The notes beneath the pieces were generated by a model. That model was not told the origin of the DNA, ran no database searches, and saw only the letters and a program-made list of their open reading frames with translations. A stretch of DNA of 64,000 nt from Tetraselmis striata (lineage: Eukaryota; Chlorophyta; Chlorodendrophyceae; Chlorodendrales; Chlorodendraceae): positions 58,017 to 122,016 of the forward strand of contig VCJN01003482.1 of the NCBI GenBank assembly GCA_006384855.1. The letters run 5' to 3'. Both the position numbers and the translations under genes were made by a program. Shown one piece after another: positions 5,673-29,925 of the stretch. Position 1 is the first letter of the stretch. Every line of letters begins with the position of its first letter.

Positions 5673-5909
5673 TCACCAATAAAATGCTGAATAAGGATTA
5701 ATAATAGCGACCGATTATTGTAAAATATGTAAAATATATTGTTATCCCCGAGTAGATATCGTATTCGTACTGGTACTGCGGGTTTGGTACGGGTACGAGT
5801 ACTGGTACCGGCAGTTGGCGGCGGCGCGCGCGCGCTCGATATATTATAAAATATCGATCCCCGAGCGACTATGTCCGTCGGCGCTACAGAGAAGCAACAG
5901 GAGAGGAGA

Positions 5910-5938
5910 CCCCCCCCCCCCCCCCCCCCCCCCCCCCC
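5910..5938. repeat. Poly-C tract (29 nt)
   Basis: Uninterrupted C run 110 bp upstream of the SRP14 start codon, probably in its leader or promoter. Confidence 0.9.
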
Positions 5939-6047
5939 ACACCTCCTCCTTCCCATCCTCTCGCCATCCCCCAGACACTCGTGGCCTCGCGGGCTTGATC
6001 AAGCTCCAGGCGGCGGGGCTGGCCGGCACCCAGCGGCGGCGGGCGCG

Positions 6048-6356
6048 ATGGTGCTGCTCAGCAACGACGAGTTCCTGAACGAGCTGCACAAGCTGTACGC
6101 GCGCAACAAGGAGACGGGCAGCGTGTATGTCACCATGAAGCGCAGCGCTCTGAAGCCCCACACCAAGCGGTTCGCCAACCAGGCGGAGGAGGACCACTGC
6201 TGCCTGGTGCGCGCCACGGACGGCAAGCGGAAGTTCAGCACCACCCTGGGCCCGGGCGACAACTCCAAGTTCCAGGCCTCGTACCACACCATCCTCAAGG
6301 CGAACATGGACGCGCTGAAGAAGAAGGACAAGAAGGGCAAGGCCGCGAAGAAGTGA
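6048..6356 (+). CDS. SRP14: Signal recognition particle 14 kDa subunit (SRP14), intronless
   Basis: The 102-residue protein matches SRP14 end to end: N-terminal MVLLSNDEFLNEL, then the beta-strand segment TGSVYVTMKR, then CCLVRATDGKRKFSTTL, FQASYHTILKANMDALKK and a short lysine-rich tail. SRP14 pairs with SRP9 and binds the Alu domain of SRP RNA in the cytosol, pausing translation while a signal-peptide-bearing ribosome finds the ER. The start at 6048 is chosen because family members begin with MVLL; the longer upstream frame passes through the poly-C tract and is not conserved-looking. The length is close to plant SRP14, without the alanine-rich extension of primates. A TGTAA signal lies at 6520. 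Confidence 0.93.
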   Translation: MVLLSNDEFLNELHKLYARNKETGSVYVTMKRSALKPHTKRFANQAEEDHCCLVRATDGKRKFSTTLGPGDNSKFQASYHTILKANMDALKKKDKKGKAAKK

Positions 6357-11806: not shown

Positions 11807-14800
11807 CTAGACGCGGTACGCCTTGCGCAGCGCCGCAACGTCGCAGCCGGCGGCCTGGATGCCATCCACCGCCTCCTTGAGCGTCGCCTTGGCTGACTTG
11901 CCCATCAGCATGACGGTCATGCCGAAGCGGTCGCACGTGGCGAGCCCCTCCAGCAGCTGCGCGCCCAGGGCCGCCTCGCCGGGCAGCATGCCGCCGAGCG
12001 AGATGGCGGTGGCCACGCTGCCGACGACGTCCGCGGTGAGGCTGGCCTTGAGCAGTGCCGGCAGCTGGCCGGGGCTCAGCCGCCGCATGTACGCCGCCAG
12101 CTGCTCCGGCTCCTTGGCCAGCTGCTTGGTGGCGCGCTCCACGTCCACCGCCGACCGCGGCGGCGGCGGCAGCGCCCCCGCAGCCGCGGCGTTGTGGAGC
12201 GCGATGGCGGCCGCAGCCTTGGCGGCCGCCGCCTCGTGAAGCTTCGCGGTGGCCGGCGGCTTGGGGGCAGCGGGGGCCGGCGGGGCGGGCGCCGCGGAGG
12301 CACTGACCGTGCGTTCCTCGGCCTCCTCCTCCTCAGAGTCCTCCGACGTCTCCACCACTGGGATCTTACGCCGGGAGGCCCTCACCGCCTCCGCCGCCTC
12401 CTCCTCGCGCGCCCTGGCTAGCTCCGCCGCGCACGCGGCCATCTCCCCGCGCAGCGCGCGGTTGTTCGGGAGCGCCGCCGCCACCGCCTCAAAGTCCTCC
12501 ATGGCCGCGGAGAGCCGCCCCAGCGCGCGCCGCGCCGCCGCCCGCCGGTGGCGCGCCTTGACGTAGCCCGAGTCCGCCGCCAGCGCCGCGTCGCAATCCG
12601 CCTCCGCGGCGCCGTACGACCCCGCGCGCAGGTGCGCCATCGCGCGGTTGGCGAGCAGCACCGCGGCGCCGTCCGCAGCCCCCGGCGCCGCCAGCGCGGC
12701 GGTGTACGCGTCGACCGCCTCCTTGAGCCGGCCGGCCTTGAACGCCGCGTTGCCGCGCTCCTTCAGCGCCGCAGCGCTCAGGGTCGGCGTCGGGTTGACA
12801 TTCTCCTCCTCGCGGGTGGGCGCCGTTACCTCCGCCGTGGCAGCAGCCGGCGCCGCCGCCGTCTCCTCCTCATCCTCCTCCTCGCTCTCCTCCACCACAA
12901 TCTTCTTTCTAGTGACAGCCGCCGCAGCCTCGGCCGCAGGCTGCGGCGCCTCCTCCGCCTCCTCCTCATCCCTCTCCTCCACTACAATCTTCTTACGGGT
13001 GGTAGGCGGCTCGGGCACAGCTGCGGCAGCCGGCGCCGCCTGGCTCCCCACCCCGTCCTCCTCCTCCTCCTCGCTCTCCTCCACCACAATCCTCCTCCGT
13101 GTGGCAGCCGCTTCTGGTTCAGCGGTGGTCGTAGCGATTGGCGCCGCAGCCGCTGTCTTTTCCTCCTCCGGCCCCTCCTCATCGCTCTCCTCCACCACAA
13201 TCTTCTTCCGCGTGGCAGCCCCCTCTGGTTCGGCGGTGGTCGTAGCGGGTGGCGCTGCAGCCGCTGTCTTGTGAGCTTCCTCCTCCTCCTCCTCCTCCTC
13301 TTCGCTCTCCTCCACCACAATCTTCTTGCGGGTGGTAGGCGGCTCAGGCTCAGCCGCGGCAGCCGGCATTGCCTGGCTCCTCATCCCCACCCCGGCCTTC
13401 TCCTCCTCCTCCTCGTCATTCTCCTCGACGGCAATCTTCTTGCGGGTGACAGGCGGCTCAGGCGCAGCCGCGGCAGCCGGCGCCGCCTGGCTCCCCGCCC
13501 CCACCCCGGCCTCGTCCTCCTCCTCCTCCTCGCTCTCCTCCACCAACACCTTGCGGCGCTGCAGGGGCTGGGCAGCCGCAGGCGCTGCCGCCGCGCCCAC
13601 CTCCTCCTCCTCCTCCTCCTCCTCCTCCTCCTCCTCCGACGAGTCGCTCTCGTCCACGACCGCGACGTGCCAGCGTGTCGGCGCCGCCTCTGGGGGCGGC
13701 GTCGGCGGCGGCGTGTCTGGTCCCTCCGGCGTGCCCTCCGCCACATCGTCGGCCGCCTTGTCGCCGCCACCGCTGGCCGCTGTCCCCGTGCCCACGTCCA
13801 CGGAGACCACCACCGGCGGCGCGACCGACTTGAGGTGCGCCAGCAGCGCCGCGTACTCCGCGGCCGCCTGCTTGTTGTCCGGCAGCAGGCTCAGCAGCGC
13901 GCGGTAGTCGGCGCAGGCGGCCTGCAGCTGGCCCAGCTGGCGCCGCGCGAGCGCGCGGCGGTGCAGCGCCTTGGCGTGCTTGGGGTCCTGCGCCAGCACG
14001 GCCTCGCAGTCCTCCAGACACGCTGCGCAACAGGGGCGGCGCAGGCCGGGGGGCACCACGTGGTCAGGGCAACCCAGCGGCCGGGCAAACAGACATACGT
14101 ACAGAGATGCATGCATGCATGCATGCATGCATGCACTACGTATATAGCACAGTGCTCCATGTGCATGCGGGTGTCAACGCCATAATAAGATGCCTGCCGG
14201 CAGAGGTTGAACGTAGACGAAACCGTAGTGGAACTACAGCGAATGTTCTTATAGTTTGGATGCAAGCCCGATGTGGGGCTTGTTACAAGGGGTCTTATAA
14301 GCGCATCGGCACACGTAGACCTTTGTATGCAAGGCCGCAGCAGCACGAGTACATCCATCATACATGCATCGCGACGGACAATACTGCGAACAAATACGGC
14401 ACGGCGCATGATGATACAACTCGCGCCAGACACGAGAATGAAGCGCTGTTTAAATGCTTGTGGAAACTTAAGTACGTACGGGTGCCGGCAAATAAGAGCA
14501 CTGCGAATAGGAGCCTGCGCCGCCTGCCAGAGGTCAAATGGTAGACGAAACTACAGCGGATCGATGGCGAATGTTCTGATGGGTTGCATGCAAGCCCAAT
14601 TTGAGGCTTGTAGGAAAGGGTTCGTATGGATGCCTCGGCACCTGCAGACCTCCGTACGCAAGCCGTGCAGCAATTCAAACATCAAATGTTGCGATGGAGA
14701 ATACTGCAAGCAAATAAGTACGAGAAGGTACATACCGCGCCGTAGTTAATGAGTGAAACGCTTATGTAAAGTAAACTATGTACGGGTGCCGGCGCATTAA

Positions 14801-17800
14801 TAATAAGAGCACTGCGGATAAGAGCCCGCCCCGCCCGCCAGAGGGCAAATGCAGACAAAACCATAGCGGAGCTATAGTGAATGTTCTTATCATAGATTGG
14901 ATGCCAGACCAATATGAGGCTTACATAGGAAGGTTCTAATAAGCGCGTCGGCACCCGTAGTATATTACGAAAGTAATAGCGTGGATGCAGATTGTTTGGG
15001 GGCGGGAGGGGTGGCACCCACCCTGGTAGTCCTTGTTCTTGAGGTGCAGCATGGCGCGGTTGGACAGCACCAGCACGTTGCCCGGCTGCTGCACAAGCAC
15101 CAGCTGCCACAGCTCTGCGGCGCGCCCGAGGTCGCCCTGCTTGAAGGCCTCGTTGCCGGCGACGCGAAGCTCGTTCAGTGCGTCGTCGCCCGCCAACGGA
15201 GCGGACGCGGCCGAGGCAGCCGGCGCTGCTGCCGCCTTCTCCGCTGCGGGGGGAGCGGAGGGCTGCTTCGCCTCGGACTTTTCCGCTGCAGGGGGCGCCG
15301 CTGGCTGGCCTGCAGCAGGCTCCCTGGCAGGGGTCGGCTCGGCCTGCGCCACCGATGGAGGCTGCTTGCCAGGCGTCTGTTGCTTGGGCTGCTTGGTCTT
15401 CTTGTTCGCCGCCGCGCTGGCAATAGCCTATGAGGGAAAAGGGCGGTCGGTGTCAGCTGCGGGAGGGGAGGCGGAAGATGTGCTCGGCTTTTGCTCAGAC
15501 GTGCAAGACCCTGTGGCTCTTGCGCTGCAGTCGGGCGGGACATCAGGCGGCGTTGTCCAACAGGGGACTCGTAGCAGCGGTGCCACTGGTCAACATGGCG
15601 GTGAGCCTGAAGAGGTGTGTGGAAGGGGGGAGGGGACAGACGTGGAGGGGGGGGGGGGGGGGGGGGGAGCACTGGTGTGAATCCTCAGTAGGGCGCACCT
15701 GCTGCCTGGAAGCCTGCGCATCCGCAAGGCGCTTGGCCCGCTCCGCCCGGCGGGCCTCCCACTCCGCCTGCGCCACGGCCGCCTTGTGGCGCCGGCTCTC
15801 CGCCGCCTCGGCGAACGTGGCCAGCGCGTCCTCCCCCTCCTGCTCCTCCTCGCTCTCGTCGTCGCTGTCCAGCTCCTCGATCACGACCGCGCCCTTCTTG
15901 TACTCCGTCGACCCGTTGCCAAAGGCGGCGCCGGCCTTGGCGCGCCGCGCTGTCCGCGCCTTGATGGCGGCGCGCACCTCTGCCAGCTCCCGCTCCACCG
16001 CCTTCCGGGCGCCGGCCGGCACGCGCTCCGCCGCGGCAGAAAATGCAGCGGCCGCGCCCTCCAGCACGCCCAGCGCCCGGCGGCACCCGCCCAGCCGGTT
16101 CCACGCCTTGCCGTAGCCGGGGTCCAGCGCAACCGCAGCGCCGGCGTCGGCCTCCGCCGCCGCCGCCTCGCCCAGTTTGAGCCGGCACGCGGCGCGGTTG
16201 TTCAGGAGCACCGCGCACGCGGGCGTCAGGCGCAGCGCCCGGCTGAACGTGTCCGCCGCCGCGAGGTAGTCCCCCCTGGCAAAGGCCTCGTTGCCGCTCG
16301 CGCGCAGCGCGTCTGCCTGCACCTGCAGGCTTGGCTCCTCCGGCTCCGTCGCCACCTCCGGCAATGCGACCTCCTCCACTTCCATCTCCTCCTCTTCCTC
16401 CTCCTCCTCAACCACAATGCGCTTCTTCGCCACCGCCACCGCCGCGCTGGCCGGCGCCTCCCCAGGGCAACTAGCAGAGGTGGGCTTGGCGGCACTGTCC
16501 GCCGCCGCCGGCTTGGGCACGGCGGGGTCGGGGTAGTAGCCGGTGCCCTGGCCGCCGGTGCCGAAAAAGTAGCCAGGCAGCGGGCCACCCCACTTGGGGC
16601 AGGGCACGAAGTCCCCGGTGGCCTCCGGCTGCGCGGGTGGCGCCTCCATCTCCACCTCCTCAACGCCCCCGTCTTTCTCCTCCTCCTCTTCTTCGCTCTC
16701 CTCCCCATCGCTCACCTCCTCGATGGCCACACGCTTCATCGACTTCTTCTCCTGCCGGCCCGGGACAGCACAGAGGTCAGTGCCTGCCCTGGCGCTGGAG
16801 CCCAAATGATACATGCTGCTGCATACAGGCCGCCGGGCTGGTAAACGTGGCGGCCGTTGTCACCCAGGTAACAATGATCCACCCCCCTATCCAGGAGACC
16901 CACTGCCCGATGATTGCGGCGGGTTGAGGCTCCTCACCAGCGCCTTCTCCGCGGCGTCGCGCACGCGCAGCAGCTCCTTGATGGACGGGTCGGCCGCCAG
17001 CCCCTGCTGCGCGTCCGCCAGCGCGCCCTCCATGTCCTTCAGCTCCAGCCGGGCGGCGGCGCGCCGCAGCAGCGCCTGCGCGGACGGGAAACGCACAGCA
17101 CCATGTTACGCACTTTGACGCGATTTGGGTGCATCGGGTCTAGCGCATGAGAGAGGGTGCGGACCAGGATTGTGCGGAAGTCCGTTTCGAGCCGACTTTG
17201 CTTTATTCTGTTATATAAGCAATTAAGGTCAAGATTTGCAGGTTGTCCGGTCACAACATCTGCATGTGGTGAGTTACGTTGTGTTTATGTGCCCAACTTC
17301 ACCTAATTCGTGTTCTTAAGATTAATTATGAAGCTAAGGGGGAATCCCCTGAACTTGGCGTAATCATGTGACCCCCAATGACTTTCCATTAATTTTGAGG
17401 GTCCCCCCATTAATTAATCATGCTTGCTTAGTGACATGATTAACAAAAAAATCATGTGTAATTACTCTTAACACTTAAGAGTACTTATGCACAACCGTGC
17501 AGACAGACGTGTGAGATGCCTTCAGACATATGGAAGGGGAAGGGGCAAGATGGAGTGAGAGGGTGACAGAAAAGCGGGAGGCATGGGAGGTAGGACGGCG
17601 AGGTGGAGGTGCAAATGGGAGGCGAGGCGGAGGTAGGAGCGCAGGTTAAGATGGTGGCGGAGAAGCGTTCAATACATGCAGAGTCAGCGCGATGCTCTGA
17701 CTGCCTGGATGAGGAAGGCCGACAGCAGGGCAGGGGAGTGGTGCGGGGCAGGGGGTGGCGGCGCACCTTCATGTAGCCCGGCTCCACATCCAGCGCCGCG

Positions 17801-20108
17801 CTGCAGTCCGCCTCCGCCTTCTCCCAGTGCTTGAGCTTCATGTGCACCGCGGCGCGGTTCGCAAGCACCACCGCGCTGGCGGGCCACAGCTCCAGCGACA
17901 GCGTGTACGCCGCCACGGCCGACGCGTACTCGCGCGCGCGGAACAGGTCGTTGCCCTTCTCCTTCTCGCGGATGGCCAGCACCTCGCGCTCCGCGGAGCT
18001 CAGCCCGCGGTTAGCGGCGGACAGCTTGTCCACGGAGCCCACGATGGCGGGGGTCTCCAACTCCGTCTTGCCCTGCGACACGGACGACGCGTACGTGCGG
18101 GCAACACCGGTCAAGGGAAGAAAGGGGCGGGCAAGAGCGGGTCGCCAACCACTTGGCTTGATGTCATTGCTATGCTGTAAAAGTTACACAGATTCCGCCA
18201 CATGCATAGCTATGATCTACTGCAAATGATATATATTGCTGTTATGACTCCAAGAGGGAGGGTCGCATTTTAAACTCAAGTATGCACCATTTTTCTGCAC
18301 GGGAACCCTTGCTTGGTGCTGCAAAACCGATCAGCGACTATGGATCCCCCACATGCCATGCCATGCCAGGCCATGCCATGGTACAATCCATGCGCGGGTG
18401 CCGGTGATGTAAGCATAACAACACTTTGACTGCGAACCATACACCCGCCTGCCAGGGGTCAAACATGGAAAGGCAGAAGCGATGCCCTAGCAAATGTTCC
18501 TGCAAGTCAGATCCGACTCAAACTTCAGGCATGTATCCAGGGCTCCTATATGAGAAAGCACACTGGCACCTGATGTACATGCCGTTTTACCTCGGAGGTG
18601 TACATAGTCGCTACATCGATGCCTAAAACAGTTCGGTCTCACGTCTCTCTCGCCATCGCTGTGAATATGGGCAATGGACAATCAATGCCAACTCTCAGGG
18701 CTTTTTGGTTATGTATAAGTACCCCCATTATTGTGAGAGGATATGCAAACGCGGGCACATGTGAATGCGGGTGCCGACGCACCCATAACAAGCCTTCTAA
18801 ATATAAGCCGCAAGCCAGACATGCATGCAACATATAAGAACATTTGCTATAGTTTTGTCTACTTTTGAGCTCTGGCAGGCAGGGCAGGCTTTTTTTTCAC
18901 AGTGTTCTTATTACCGCGCCGGCACCCGTACATGCAAGCGCTTGCGGGTGGCTGTAGTAGCCACGTAGGTGCTTCCCATCACCACACCCGCAGGGTCAGA
19001 CAGGCAGCCAGCAGGCAGCATGCACGCCCGGCGCACCTCCTCCGGCTCGTCGCCCTCCTCCGCGAGCGCGGCATCGGCGACCTGGTCCCATTTGCGGTAG
19101 TAATCCTGCCCGCTGCGCACCTTGCCGCCCACGCTGGCGTCGCCCTTGGCCACCGCGGGCGTTGCGGGGACCATCTCGCCCGCGTCCGTGGGCGGGGCTG
19201 GCCGCCTTGGGGGCGCAGTGCAGTGGGTGTTGGGGGCACTGCCCGGGGTGAGGGCACAGGAATTTAGCGGCAGCCGTGTGCAGGCCAGGAAGGGGAAGGG
19301 GGGCCAGGCAGGCGGGCAGCGGCACTCACCCCGGGCGGCTTGCACTGGCGGCGGCCAGCGCCTCGTCGCGCGCCTTGACCTGCGTCAGGAAGGAGGCGAT
19401 GTCCTGCTTGGCGGCGCGCGCGGCCTCCTCCTCCGCGCGGCGCACCTCCGGGTCGCCTGGCAGCAGCAACGGGTTGCCCAGCGCCTGTGTGCGGGTGATG
19501 GGTGCCCTCAGCTGCAGCAGCACAGCCCCCTCCCCCCCCCCCCCCCCAACAATTCTCGCCCAATTCCCGCCCCTGCTTCTCCAACCCCCCCGGAACTCCC
19601 GCGTGCGCGATGCAGTCCAGCTGTGCTGGGGCAGGGCATGGCCAGGCAAGAGGGGACTGGTAGGAGCGAAGGGGGGACAAAACACGCCTTGAGCCGCTCG
19701 CGCACGCAGCCCGCGGTGGACTCAAAGCCCTCGCGGCGAAGGTACCCCTCGAGCTTGCGCAGCTTGTTCAGGTCCGTAGCTCCCTGAATCTGGTCGTACC
19801 TGCAGACAAGCCCAACCGGATTCAGCCCCTTAGCTTCCTGGATACCCCCAGAAATCAACGGGCGCGCGAAGGGAGGAGGACGAGCGGAGGTGTGGGGGGG
19901 CGCGAGGGGGGGGGGGGGGGGGGGGGGGCGACAACGGAAGGCCGCGCTTTGCGCCATTCGCCGTGTCCTCCTCCCTTCGCGGAGAGTTATCGTGGGCGAG
20001 GCCCCGCTGTGCCCAGGACGGGTTGGGATATGCAACTCACGTGATGTTGTCGAACTCGCGCCTCTCGGCCTCCGTGACCTGCACCTCCTCCGCGCGGCTG
20101 GCGTTCAT
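11807..20108 (-). CDS. SPAG1: SPAG1/DNAAF13-like dynein assembly factor with TPR clusters and RPAP3-type C-terminus
   Basis: Nine exons fit in phase: 20041-20108, 19688-19799, 19330-19484, 19037-19205, 17767-18072, 16938-17075, 15699-16751, 15022-15427 and 11807-14022, giving about 1540 residues. The N-terminal part (KLRKLEGYLRREGF, then DYYRKWDQV) follows the SPAG1 layout. TPR clusters lie near residues 200-300, 455-560, 755-860 and 1216-1340, and a Monad-binding RPAP3_C domain near 1410-1540 ends KAYRV. Animal SPAG1 has three TPR clusters and about 930 residues. SPAG1 is a cytoplasmic HSP90/HSP70 co-chaperone scaffold (R2SP complex) that assembles axonemal dynein arms. Acidic motifs of type RKKIVVEESEEE recur about 12 times. 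Exon 2 seems to use a GC donor. The start at 20108 is the first in-frame ATG of the conserved region; an upstream exon is possible. Confidence 0.85.
12860..13660 (-). repeat. SPAG1: Tandem coding repeat of basic-acidic motif in SPAG1
   Basis: About nine units spaced some 30-45 codons apart, each with a core like TRKKIVVEESEEEEE separated by alanine/proline-rich linker. Cores vary: RRKVLVEE, KKIAVEENDEE, RRRIVVEESEE, KKIVVEERDEE. Further single copies lie in exon 7 and after the fourth TPR cluster. On the plus strand the array gives long artefactual serine/leucine frames. Confidence 0.85.
14164..14317 (+). mobile_element. MITE-like element, copy a (diverged), in SPAG1 intron 8
   Basis: Starts near GCATGCGGGTG and ends near ATCGGCACACGTA, with the family core GCGAATGTTCTTATAG and GATGCAAGCC. 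The terminal inverted repeats are decayed relative to copy c. Confidence 0.5.
14477..14650 (+). mobile_element. MITE-like element, copy b, in SPAG1 intron 8
   Basis: Begins TACGGGTGCCGGC and ends CTCGGCACCTGCAGA, containing the same core (GCGAATGTTCTGAT, GCATGCAAGCC, GAGGCTTGTAGGAA). Confidence 0.6.
14781..14959 (+). mobile_element. MITE-like element, copy c, in SPAG1 intron 8
   Basis: Best-preserved copy, 179 bp. The 5' end TACGGGTGCCGGCGC is matched, with one mismatch, by the inverted 3' end GCGTCGGCACCCGTA. It has no coding capacity. I could not fix a TSD. Confidence 0.7.
15647..15667. repeat. Poly-G tract (21 nt) in SPAG1 intron 7
   Basis: Uninterrupted G run just downstream, on the gene strand, of the exon 7 donor. 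Confidence 0.9.
18390..18582 (+). mobile_element. MITE-like element, copy d, between SPAG1 exons 4 and 5
   Basis: Begins CATGCGCGGGTGCCGG and retains GCCTGCCAGGGGTCAAA and AGCAAATGTTCCTGC. It is more diverged than copy c. Confidence 0.45.
18766..18930 (-). mobile_element. MITE-like element, copy e, between SPAG1 exons 4 and 5
   Basis: Runs from TGCGGGTGCCGACGC to GCGCCGGCACCCGTA with the inverted core ATAAGAACATTTGCTATAG, so it is oriented opposite to copies a-d. Confidence 0.6.
19906..19928. repeat. Poly-G tract (23 nt) in SPAG1 intron 1
   Basis: Uninterrupted G run between exons 1 and 2. Confidence 0.9.
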
Positions 20109-21180: not shown

Positions 21181-21492
21181 AGGTGCTACAGGTACCCTTG
21201 ATTTGCTACATTTATTTTCCCCCTGCGTGGGCCACTCTGTGTGCTAACTCGGTGGCTATACCCTAATGCTGTAGTATTCCCTGCTTATGGAAGCCTGTAG
21301 GCTGTAGTACTGTTAGCGGTAATGCTATCCATTCCAGTAGTTCGATAGCATTACCGCTAACAGTACTACAGCCTACAGGCTTCCATAAGCAGGTAATACT
21401 ACAGCATTAGGGTATAGCCACCGAGTTGGCACACAGAGTGGCCCACGCAGGGGGAAAATAAATGTAGCAAATCAAGGGTACCTGTAGCACCT
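21181..21492. repeat. Near-perfect hairpin: 149-bp inverted arms, 14-nt loop
   Basis: Arm 21181-21329 is the reverse complement of 21344-21492, with only two mismatches noticed by eye (at about 21250 and 21288). Loop 21330-21343. The outer ends are AGGTGCTACAGG and CCTGTAGCACCT. There is no ORF. It could be a foldback transposon or, if transcribed, a long double-stranded precursor of small RNAs. I see no clear TSD. Confidence 0.9.
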
Positions 21493-28005: not shown

Positions 28006-29925
28006 ATGCCGGCTGTCGGCGGCGGCATGCTGGCGCCAGAGCCGGAGCCGCAGCCGGAGCTGGAGTGCGATGGGATGCCGGGCTTGGACGGCGGACTGCT
28101 GCAGCTTGTTGCTTCCCGCTGCACGCCGGCATGGCGAGGCATCCTTCGTTGCGTTTGCACCGACATGCGCGACGGCGTGCGCGCGGCGGAGGCTGCCAGC
28201 GGAGCGGCGACCCCCTTGCGGCTGGTAGAACTTGCGGCGGCTGGCGGGGCGGCGTTGATGGCATGGGCACACCCGCTCGGCGGTTGCCCGGCCGGCGTGT
28301 GGAACCGGGCCTGCGAGGCGGCTGCCCTAGCGGGCTGCAGCGAGGCGCTGGAGGAGGCACGCCAGCGTGGCAGCACCGTGGGTCCCGCCACCTGTGCCGC
28401 AGCGGCCAAGGGCGGCCACCTGCCACTGCTGCAGAGCCTGCGCGCGTCGGGCTGCAAGTGGGACGCGGACACCACTCGCCAGGCCGCGCAAGGTGCCAAC
28501 CTGGGCATCTCGCCCTAATAACTGCTTATATCCTACGGGTTTCGACGCACCTGCAAGCCTCCAATTCGGCTTGCATGCAACCAATAAGAACATTTGCTAC
28601 AGTCTCATCTAGATTTGGCCTCTGATAGGCAGGGCAGGTTATTATTCGCAGTGTTCTGACTGCCCCATAGGCACCAGAACACAAAATCATAAAAATCAAT
28701 GTGCCATCATGAAAATATGCTTGCCAGCGGGCACAGCTCGCTAACGGCTCCATGCGCGTGTGTACCTGCCTTGTGTGCCCAGGCGGGCATCTCGCTCTCC
28801 TGCAATGGGCGCTCTTGCACGGATGCGCCTGGGGGTGGAGCACGATCGAGGGCGCGGCGGGCGGCGGCCAGCTCGCCGTCGCGCAGTGGCTGCACGCCGC
28901 GGGATGTAACTGGGACGCACGCGCCTGCGCCGCGGCAGCGGGTGGAGGCCACCTCTCGATGCTTGCGTGGTTGCGGCAGCATGGGTGCCCATGGAGCGCC
29001 GAGACTGTCAACATGGCTGCACGGTGGGTGCCCACCCTGCTCAGCTGCTCTTAAGCTGTGTGTGCGAGAGGGGTCCGGATTGCTGCTGGTACCTCTCCAT
29101 GGTCAAAGTCAATATGGCATTGTCATCGAATCGCACATGGCCAGTAGCGCTGCTCCCCTTGCTTGCATGCTGCTCTGCGGGTAGGGGACAGCTCTTGGGC
29201 AATGTTACTAGGCGCACAAGTTCGATTTTAACCAGAGGTATACGGAACGTTCATCAATCACACAGAAAATGCACGTGATTCTCACCCCCCAACCCCCCCC
29301 CCCCACCCCCCCCACCCACCCACCCCACCCCCGCGCCCGCGCAACCTTTCTTTCTGCACTCCTCCATTGGAGCCATAGGCATGGCCATCTGCAGCTGTTG
29401 CAGTGGGCACTAGAAAATGGCGCAGTGGCAAGCCGCGAGGTTGCCAGTCTGGCAGCAGCTGGTGGGCACCGGCACGTGCTGGCCTGGATGCAGGCAAACG
29501 GATTCACACTTTGCAAGGGCGCGTGCCCAGCGGCGGCGCGGAGTGGGCACCTCCACCTCCTCCGGTGGCTGGCGGAGCAGTTGCTGCCGCTGGACGAGGA
29601 CACAATGGCGGCTGCTGCGGGTGGGGGCCACCTGCCGGTGCTTGCCTGGCTACATGAGGCGGATTGCCCGTGGGACGAGTGGGCTTGCGCGGAGGCGGCG
29701 GGGGAGGGGCAGCTGGCCGCGCTCATGTGGCTGCGGGAGCGCGGCTGCCCGTGGAGCACAGACACGCCGGCCGAGGCCGCGGAGGGCGGGCATTTGGAGG
29801 TCCTCCAGTGGGTGGTCAAAGCGGGGTGCCCGATGCACCTGCAGCAATGCGTGTACAATGCGGCAGGCAAGCATCCCAAGGTGGCGGCTTGGCTCCGCGG
29901 CATCAAGCGCAGCGGGCGGCGGTAG
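28006..29925 (+). CDS. F-box-like, ankyrin-repeat protein
   Basis: Three exons fit in phase: 28006-28492, 28783-29023 and 29379-29925, giving 424 residues. Residues near 25-60 (LDGGLLQLVASR...ILRCVCTDMRDGV) resemble a degenerate F-box. The remainder holds about eleven repeats of the type AAAGGGHLPVLAWLHEADCP, the tryptophan- and cysteine-containing ankyrin variety common in algae, stramenopiles and large DNA viruses. Such proteins bind partner proteins and, with an F-box, may select targets for ubiquitination; neither role is shown here. Intron 1 contains MITE copy f, and intron 2 ends after a C-rich stretch. TGTAA follows the stop by two bases. A start at 28024 is also possible. Confidence 0.8.
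28530..28678 (-). mobile_element. MITE-like element, copy f, in the ankyrin gene intron 1
   Basis: Begins CTACGGGTTTCGACGC and carries the inverted core ATAAGAACATTTGCTACAG and GGCAGGGCAGGTT, as in copy e. The far end is decayed. Confidence 0.55.

Follow-up and report, generated by a model that had tools for sequence, protein, structure and literature searches.

Why would an adaptor of the SPAG1/RPAP3 type carry the same short linear motif twelve times, and would the additional copies have a function? The question is raised by a gene on the minus strand (20108-11807) of the window analyzed here, a 64,000-nucleotide stretch of Tetraselmis striata DNA (assembly GCA_006384855.1, contig VCJN01003482.1, positions 58,017 to 122,016). 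Its nine exons, spliced by hand, form one open frame of 1540 residues, the approximate length given by an initial annotation of this DNA. Twelve copies of a basic-aliphatic-acidic motif, termed M1 to M12 (Table 1), were found in the product, in agreement with the dozen or so that had been counted before: three in exon 7, at residues 322, 425 and 601 as previously described, eight between TPR clusters 3 and 4 (seven clear and one degenerate), and one after cluster 4. The interval assigned to them, 12860-16751, reaches from the first base of exon 7 through the final array copy and leaves the C-terminal copy (12373-12323) outside. The exon-7 copy at residue 322 reads KRVAIEEVSDGEES (M1) and the degenerate array copy at residue 918 reads TRWHVAVVDESDSSEEE (M4), while the clear array copies begin at residues 958, 996, 1034, 1074, 1111, 1145 and 1174. 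Only M1, M3, M4 and M12 are the first motif following a TPR cluster.

The copies were counted with a strict pattern, [KR][KR][IVLM]x[IV]xE, outside which M3 and M4 fall. The pattern occurs 10 times in the protein, whereas over 2000 composition shuffles it averaged 0.036 occurrences and never exceeded 2, which rules out chance as the source of the copies; the 3 occurrences outside the array were reached in none of the 2000 shuffles. Human SPAG1, whose sequence was checked against PDB 9hb4_G, contains exactly two, at 337-343 and 754-760 (0.033 expected, P 0.0004), so that the "couple" of motifs ascribed to animal SPAG1 by the initial annotation holds for the human protein, and human RPAP3 contains one plus a looser copy at residue 495. 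In HMMER alignments, M1, which follows TPR cluster 1, pairs with human KRMVIQEIENSEDEEG, and M12, which follows the last cluster, pairs with human RRKIEIQEVNEGKEE. Human SPAG1 therefore has the motif as well, at the same two sites behind its first and last TPR clusters, and what differs is the multiplication; this comparison of copy number covers two human proteins and one yeast tail. Because human SPAG1 also has the motif at these two positions, it is presumably ancient. Multiplication of the motif in SPAG1 was not the subject of any paper among the matches listed in a literature search that left most subscription papers outside its range.

At the DNA level, the array is a tandem repeat of about 111-114 bp adjoining a (CCT)n tract. 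Codon log-odds trained on the remainder of the gene gave +0.74 per codon for residues 872-1206 in the coding frame and negative values in the other five, and none of a short list of donor-like patterns occurs within these residues. The array looks coding, and splicing out of the array was rejected on codon use and this short list of donor patterns only. Since the copies are non-identical, the array is not a simple assembly artefact, although the true copy number may deviate from the one assembled. Comparison of the seven codon sets of the core (RKKIVVEES) gave 9 changes that are synonymous and 11 that are nonsynonymous, a nonsynonymous-to-synonymous ratio (N/S) per site of 0.30 with p 0.009 in the coding frame, against p 0.14-0.92 in the other five frames; the p value is rough, as the changes are few and the copies were treated as independent though they are not. 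With p 0.009 and small counts, the array cores show purifying selection. The linkers between the cores fall by eye into two families, A (copies 1, 2 and 5) and B (copies 3 and 4), with copies 6 and 7 in neither and no simple order along the array. Amino-acid change is unreduced in linker A (N/S 1.30, p 0.75), and the ratio for linker B is not significant (N/S 0.32, p 0.13). The history of the array looks like block duplication or conversion with the core retained.

These features bear on a reading in which the motif is functional and its multiplication neutral: unequal exchange would have lengthened a tandem repeat, rich in GC and located in a disordered linker, although one or two copies were enough. 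The repeat of the DNA beside the (CCT)n tract, Glu runs that differ in length among the array copies, the suggestion of block duplication or conversion in linker types A and B, the unreduced change in linker A, and the absence of the CK2-type serine from two of the seven clear array copies are all consistent with such growth. However, the array cores are more constrained than expected, within the limits of small counts and non-independent copies, and the motif grammar is kept in the copies outside the array. We consider neutral expansion a serious rival to the reading given next, though somewhat less likely. As a separate observation, synonymous differences over four same-type pairs are 0.144 in the linkers versus 0.482 in the adjoining cores, which does not fit a simple history; the counts are small and conversion is possible.

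The reading that we favor, at a rough probability of 0.38, is that the multiplied motif may serve PIH proteins as a multivalent dock of low affinity that CK2 can tune. It is plausible and draws on register and position, by analogy with two ligands of PIH proteins, one for each half of the motif. For the first half, the yeast Tah1 tail on the CS domain of Pih1 is the model: the side chains of Val94, Ile96, Val98 and Val101 pack, Glu100 meets His333, and main-chain contacts extend the beta-sheets of the CS domain (PMC4058522). The Tah1 tail (PDB 4cgu) reads SVQIPVVEVDELPEGYDRS and has IPVVE in common with M12. With the copies set in the Tah1 register, the Ile96 position is aliphatic in 12/12, the Val98 position is Ile or Val in 12/12, and the Glu100 position is Glu in 11/12 and Asp in 1/12. 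The four human copies keep the Ile96, Val98 and Glu100 positions as well, two of them with Met or Leu at the first. The yeast tail differs from the motif in that it is a single copy and lacks both the basic pair before and the acidic run after. In human RPAP3, the motif KKVIIEET corresponds to residues 433-440, inside the stretch 409-443 that loops round the CS domain of PIH1D1 in a crystal (PMC6494491), and for human SPAG1 a two-hybrid screen pointed to a short segment behind TPR3 as involved in the binding of PIH1D2 (PMC5974087). We take residues 231-315 of PIH1D2 to be its CS domain. SPAG1 622-926 was purified in complex with this part of PIH1D2 (PMC11045720).

For the second half, the ligands of the PIH domain are phosphorylated sites of the CK2 type. 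Its dissociation constant is 0.39 uM for the Tel2 core DpSDD and about 15 uM for another Tel2 site, whose acids are confined to -1 and +1 (PMC4058522). Of the 12 copies, 9 have a CK2-type site behind them and 8 show the acidic-Ser/Thr-acidic-acidic form. M3 contains ELDSDDE, identical over seven residues to the Tel2 phosphopeptide ELDpSDDEF on the PIH domain (PDB 4CKT/4CSE); the Tel2 Phe at +4 is Ser in M3, and the match is confined to this one copy. DSDD, which is expected 0.006 times in shuffles of the protein, is not present in human SPAG1 or RPAP3. Because M3 carries the Tel2 core and acidic sites of this kind recur in most of the copies, we infer, for binding, phosphorylation and valency alike, a dock that is weak, has two parts and is repeated, and whose strong site is M3.

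A series of observations weighs against a PIH dock. On the side of the strand half, the Tah1 register was set by hand, and a profile of the 12 copies searched against PDB returned 12 matches at E up to 10 without a SPAG1, RPAP3 or Tah1 chain, the best being ORC6 at E 0.16. An AlphaFold2 single-sequence model of residues 1206-1540 reached a mean predicted local distance difference test (pLDDT) score of 57.7, too poor for use. In RPAP3, CS binding requires residues 400-420 and needs no more than these, and a construct without them did not bind (PMC5902453); the RPAP3 motif lies downstream of, and outside, these residues. The intermolecular strands of RPAP3 are assigned to 416-429 in a review, according to which isoform 2 lacks 397-429 (PMC13153604), and the complex formed by isoform 2 (R2T) is described as being without PIH1D1 (PMC5974087). 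Judged by position, isoform 2 retains the motif. Since isoform 2 keeps the motif yet forms a complex without PIH1D1, and since 400-420 suffice, the motif is not sufficient in RPAP3, and the notion that the human RPAP3 motif alone is the CS-binding site was dropped on the deletion data (PMC5902453). The multivalent platform for PIH partners proposed by the initial annotation is partly supported: the Tah1 register, the CS-wrapping segment of RPAP3 and the Tel2 core in M3 speak for it indirectly, and the sufficiency of RPAP3 400-420 speaks against it.

On the side of the acidic half, M2, M6 and M10 have no CK2-type serine, and the DSDD core is found in one copy of 12, so that the copies in general lack this core of a PIH-domain ligand. 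In the human proteins, a CK2-type site is found in one of four copies, at SPAG1 337, and the acidic-Ser-acidic-acidic form in none of the four; as the acidic half is mostly absent from the human copies, our confidence in the dock is lowered. A related reading places the function solely in the acidic tails, which would be phosphorylated by CK2 and form a multisite PIH-domain ligand, with the basic-aliphatic part serving as kinase-docking segment or spacer. It accounts for the frequency of CK2-type and acidic-Ser/Thr-acidic-acidic sites and for the one exact Tel2-type ELDSDDE; however, the columns common with the human copies are the basic-aliphatic ones, and the three copies without the serine and the single human CK2-type site count against it too, which makes it decidedly unlikely in our view.

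The partner itself can also be questioned. Chlamydomonas is without PIH1D2 (DNAAF15), which among the human PIH proteins is the one that SPAG1 binds most strongly (PMC9455862, PMC5974087), and in a chlorophyte host another PIH protein would therefore be the partner. Alternatively, the motif could dock the RUVBL1/RUVBL2 ring, RUVBL partners having also been suggested by the initial annotation, and the array could recruit or bridge several rings. The second motif copy of RPAP3 (495-503) opens with Lys495, which cross-links to RUVBL2 Lys417 (PMC5902453), a result that speaks for the ring rather than for PIH proteins. SPAG1 TPR3 and RPAP3_C cross-link to RUVBL1/2 as well (PMC11045720), and full-length SPAG1 binds RUVBL1/2 while the isolated C-terminal domain does not (PMC5974087), indicating that other regions contribute. 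Against this, the RUVBL2-binding part of RPAP3 is 541-665, which is necessary and sufficient (PMC5902453), and a cross-link in a flexible linker may be mere proximity. We regard RUVBL docking as decidedly unlikely too.

If the multiplied motif is a multivalent PIH dock, the following arrangement may be proposed. The TPR clusters would hold the tails of Hsp70 or Hsp90 and the C-terminal part would engage the RUVBL ring, as suggested by homology. The repeated element is a linear motif found after TPR clusters in this family, a basic-flanked beta-strand to which an acidic CK2-type tail is joined here. Its strand half would add an edge strand to a CS domain, in the manner of the Tah1 tail with Pih1, and its acidic half, once phosphorylated by CK2, would contact the PIH domain, best at M3 through ELDSDDE and weakly at other copies. 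An adaptor with one partner would in this way become a multivalent dock of low affinity, at which PIH proteins gather in higher local concentration near a single Hsp90/RUVBL assembly, and phosphorylation would tune the occupancy of the dock. In a bolder form, which we think unlikely, SPAG1 of this lineage could be a 12-valent, phosphorylation-tunable scaffold whose CS/PIH-docking stickers condense several PIH proteins and, by way of these, dynein clients and RUVBL rings around Hsp90, that is, a built-in nucleator of cytoplasmic dynein-assembly particles. Disordered linkers with repeated sticker motifs, for example those of the pyrenoid, likewise repeat a short motif in a linker protein; they differ in partner and compartment, and the comparison is one of kind only.

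The gene model behind these proposals has GT-AG introns in seven of eight cases, and intron 2 is GC-AG. In this intron (19687-19485, minus strand), the GC donor GCGTGT is needed to keep the frame. A bacterial or viral origin of the gene is ruled out by its nine exons. Pfam recognized TPR repeats and an RPAP3_C domain over the whole profile in the 1540-residue protein. The carboxylate clamp K/R,N,N,K/R,K,R, six columns corresponding to the Hsp90-contacting residues of RPAP3 as listed in a review (PMC13153604), is retained in 4/4 TPR clusters, so that a tail of Hsp70 or Hsp90 might in principle fit each of the four. The clamps raise another explanation, namely that the motif, by mimicry of the Hsp70/Hsp90 tail EEVD, fills the TPR clamps of its own protein. 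IEEV and VEES resemble EEVD by eye, and clamp columns are present in all four clusters; however, clamp binding uses the free C-terminal carboxylate (PMC4058522), which an internal motif does not have, and we hold such mimicry to be extremely improbable.

The product is an R2TP-family adaptor that we call SPAG1 (DNAAF13) type, a co-chaperone of the sort that helps to assemble the dynein motors of cilia, and a candidate SPAG1 ortholog in the strict sense. The stretch of cluster 1 and M1 scores 70.5 bits to human SPAG1 versus 56.7 to RPAP3, and the protein has four TPR clusters, a number that fits SPAG1 (three or more), with the first nearest SPAG1 TPR1. Within the N-terminal 175 residues, the local score was reached by 4/1000 shuffles against human SPAG1 and by 707/1000 against RPAP3; a phmmer search of residues 1-186 against PDB gave seven matches at E up to 10, SPAG1 not among them. 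In contrast, TPR cluster 4 matches RPAP3 TPR2 with 75.8 bits, its SPAG1 matches staying at or below 50.2 bits, and the RPAP3_C domain scores 101 to human RPAP3 versus 61 to human SPAG1, its PDB search giving three matches, two RPAP3 and Arabidopsis At1g56440, with SPAG1 not among them. The last TPR cluster and RPAP3_C are thus nearer RPAP3 than SPAG1. The earlier description as a SPAG1 homologue is supported as to a SPAG1/RPAP3-type identity. The RPAP3 leaning of 11888-12781 (minus strand; cluster 4 and RPAP3_C) beside a SPAG1-leaning cluster 1 bears on the timing of the SPAG1/RPAP3 family split.

Human SPAG1 (9hb4_G) is like the protein in having clamp-bearing TPR clusters, RPAP3_C and the motif following the first and last TPR clusters, and differs in length (926 versus 1540 residues), in TPR clusters (three versus four) and in strict motifs (2 versus 10, the latter among 12 copies in all). 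Human RPAP3 (6fo1_G) is the closest match of RPAP3_C and TPR cluster 4, and its KKVIIEET follows its last TPR cluster; it differs in having two TPR clusters, a strict motif beside a loose one, and no N-terminal similarity found by the shuffle comparison. In Chlamydomonas, genes go by the names SPAG1 and RPAP3 (PMC9455862, Table 3; Cre12.g556100, Cre02.g084900). Scans found no relatives in viral contigs, and in prokaryote genome contigs they gave a single match, a Bacteroidales metagenome-assembled genome with 29% identity over query residues 1-85, taken as an unrelated bacterial TPR.

Table 1. Exons, domains and motif copies of the SPAG1/RPAP3-type gene, in window positions.
Feature	Position	Strand	Residues and remarks
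Gene exons	20108-20041, 19799-19688, 19484-19330, 19205-19037, 18072-17767, 17075-16938, 16751-15699, 15427-15022, 14022-11807	-	
TPR cluster 1	16938..17979	-	about 200-316, exons 5 and 6; best PDB match human SPAG1 9hb4_G, E 3e-43; clamp K,N,N,K,K,R
M1 KRVAIEEVSDGEESEEEEEE	16677..16736	-	322-341, directly after TPR cluster 1; aligned to human SPAG1 KRMVIQEIENSEDEEG
M2 KKRIVVEEEEEEEE	16386..16427	-	425-438; pattern match; contains KKRIVVEEEEE at 425
TPR cluster 2	15960..16307	-	about 465-580; Pfam TPR_17 E 1e-5 and weaker TPR models; clamp R,N,N,K,K,R
M3 KKGAVVIEELDSDDESEEE	15843..15899	-	601-619; ELDSDDE inside, same as in Tel2 peptide ELDpSDDEF co-crystallized with PIH domain
TPR cluster 3	13826..15181	-	about 750-868; split by intron 15021-14023; Pfam TPR_2 E 1.4e-14; clamp R,N,N,K,K,R
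M4, degenerate, TRWHVAVVDESDSS and run of 12 Glu	13601..13678	-	918-943; register as M12 by eye
M5-M11, tandem array	12860..13558	-	958-1190; seven clear copies starting at 13558, 13444, 13330, 13210, 13099, 12997, 12910; spacing 29-40 residues
TPR cluster 4	12410..12781	-	about 1217-1340; best PDB match human RPAP3 6fo1_G, E 6.7e-42, then SPAG1 9hb4_G, E 5.8e-36; clamp K,N,N,R,K,R
M12 RRKIPVVETSEDSEEEE	12323..12373	-	1353-1369, between TPR cluster 4 and RPAP3_C; aligned to human SPAG1 RRKIEIQEVNEGKEE; IPVVE common with yeast Tah1 tail
RPAP3_C domain, PF13877	11888..12163	-	1423-1514; Pfam E 1.1e-14, profile 1-92 of 92; PDB RPAP3 6ez4, E 2.3e-8

Elsewhere in the window, an open frame at 5850-6356 (plus strand) has an SRP14 domain (Pfam E 1.7e-22), a subunit of the signal recognition particle, and ankyrin-type repeats are found in two open frames at 28713-29922 (plus strand; best Pfam match Ank_4, E 2e-9). 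Upstream of the gene, at 21181-21492, lies an inverted repeat with two 149-nt arms that are 99% complementary and 14 nt apart, perhaps a small transposable element.

To our knowledge, the basis on which R2TP-like complexes select their PIH proteins and the source of cohesion in dynein-assembly particles are open questions. The gene described here would be a new variation on a known family, an R2TP-family adaptor in which its own docking-type motif appears to have been multiplied. A natural protein with about 12 copies makes this motif visible, its register tying it to a CS-binding tail and its sequence to a PIH phosphopeptide, and it offers a direct test of the effect of valency on PIH recruitment and dynein arms.

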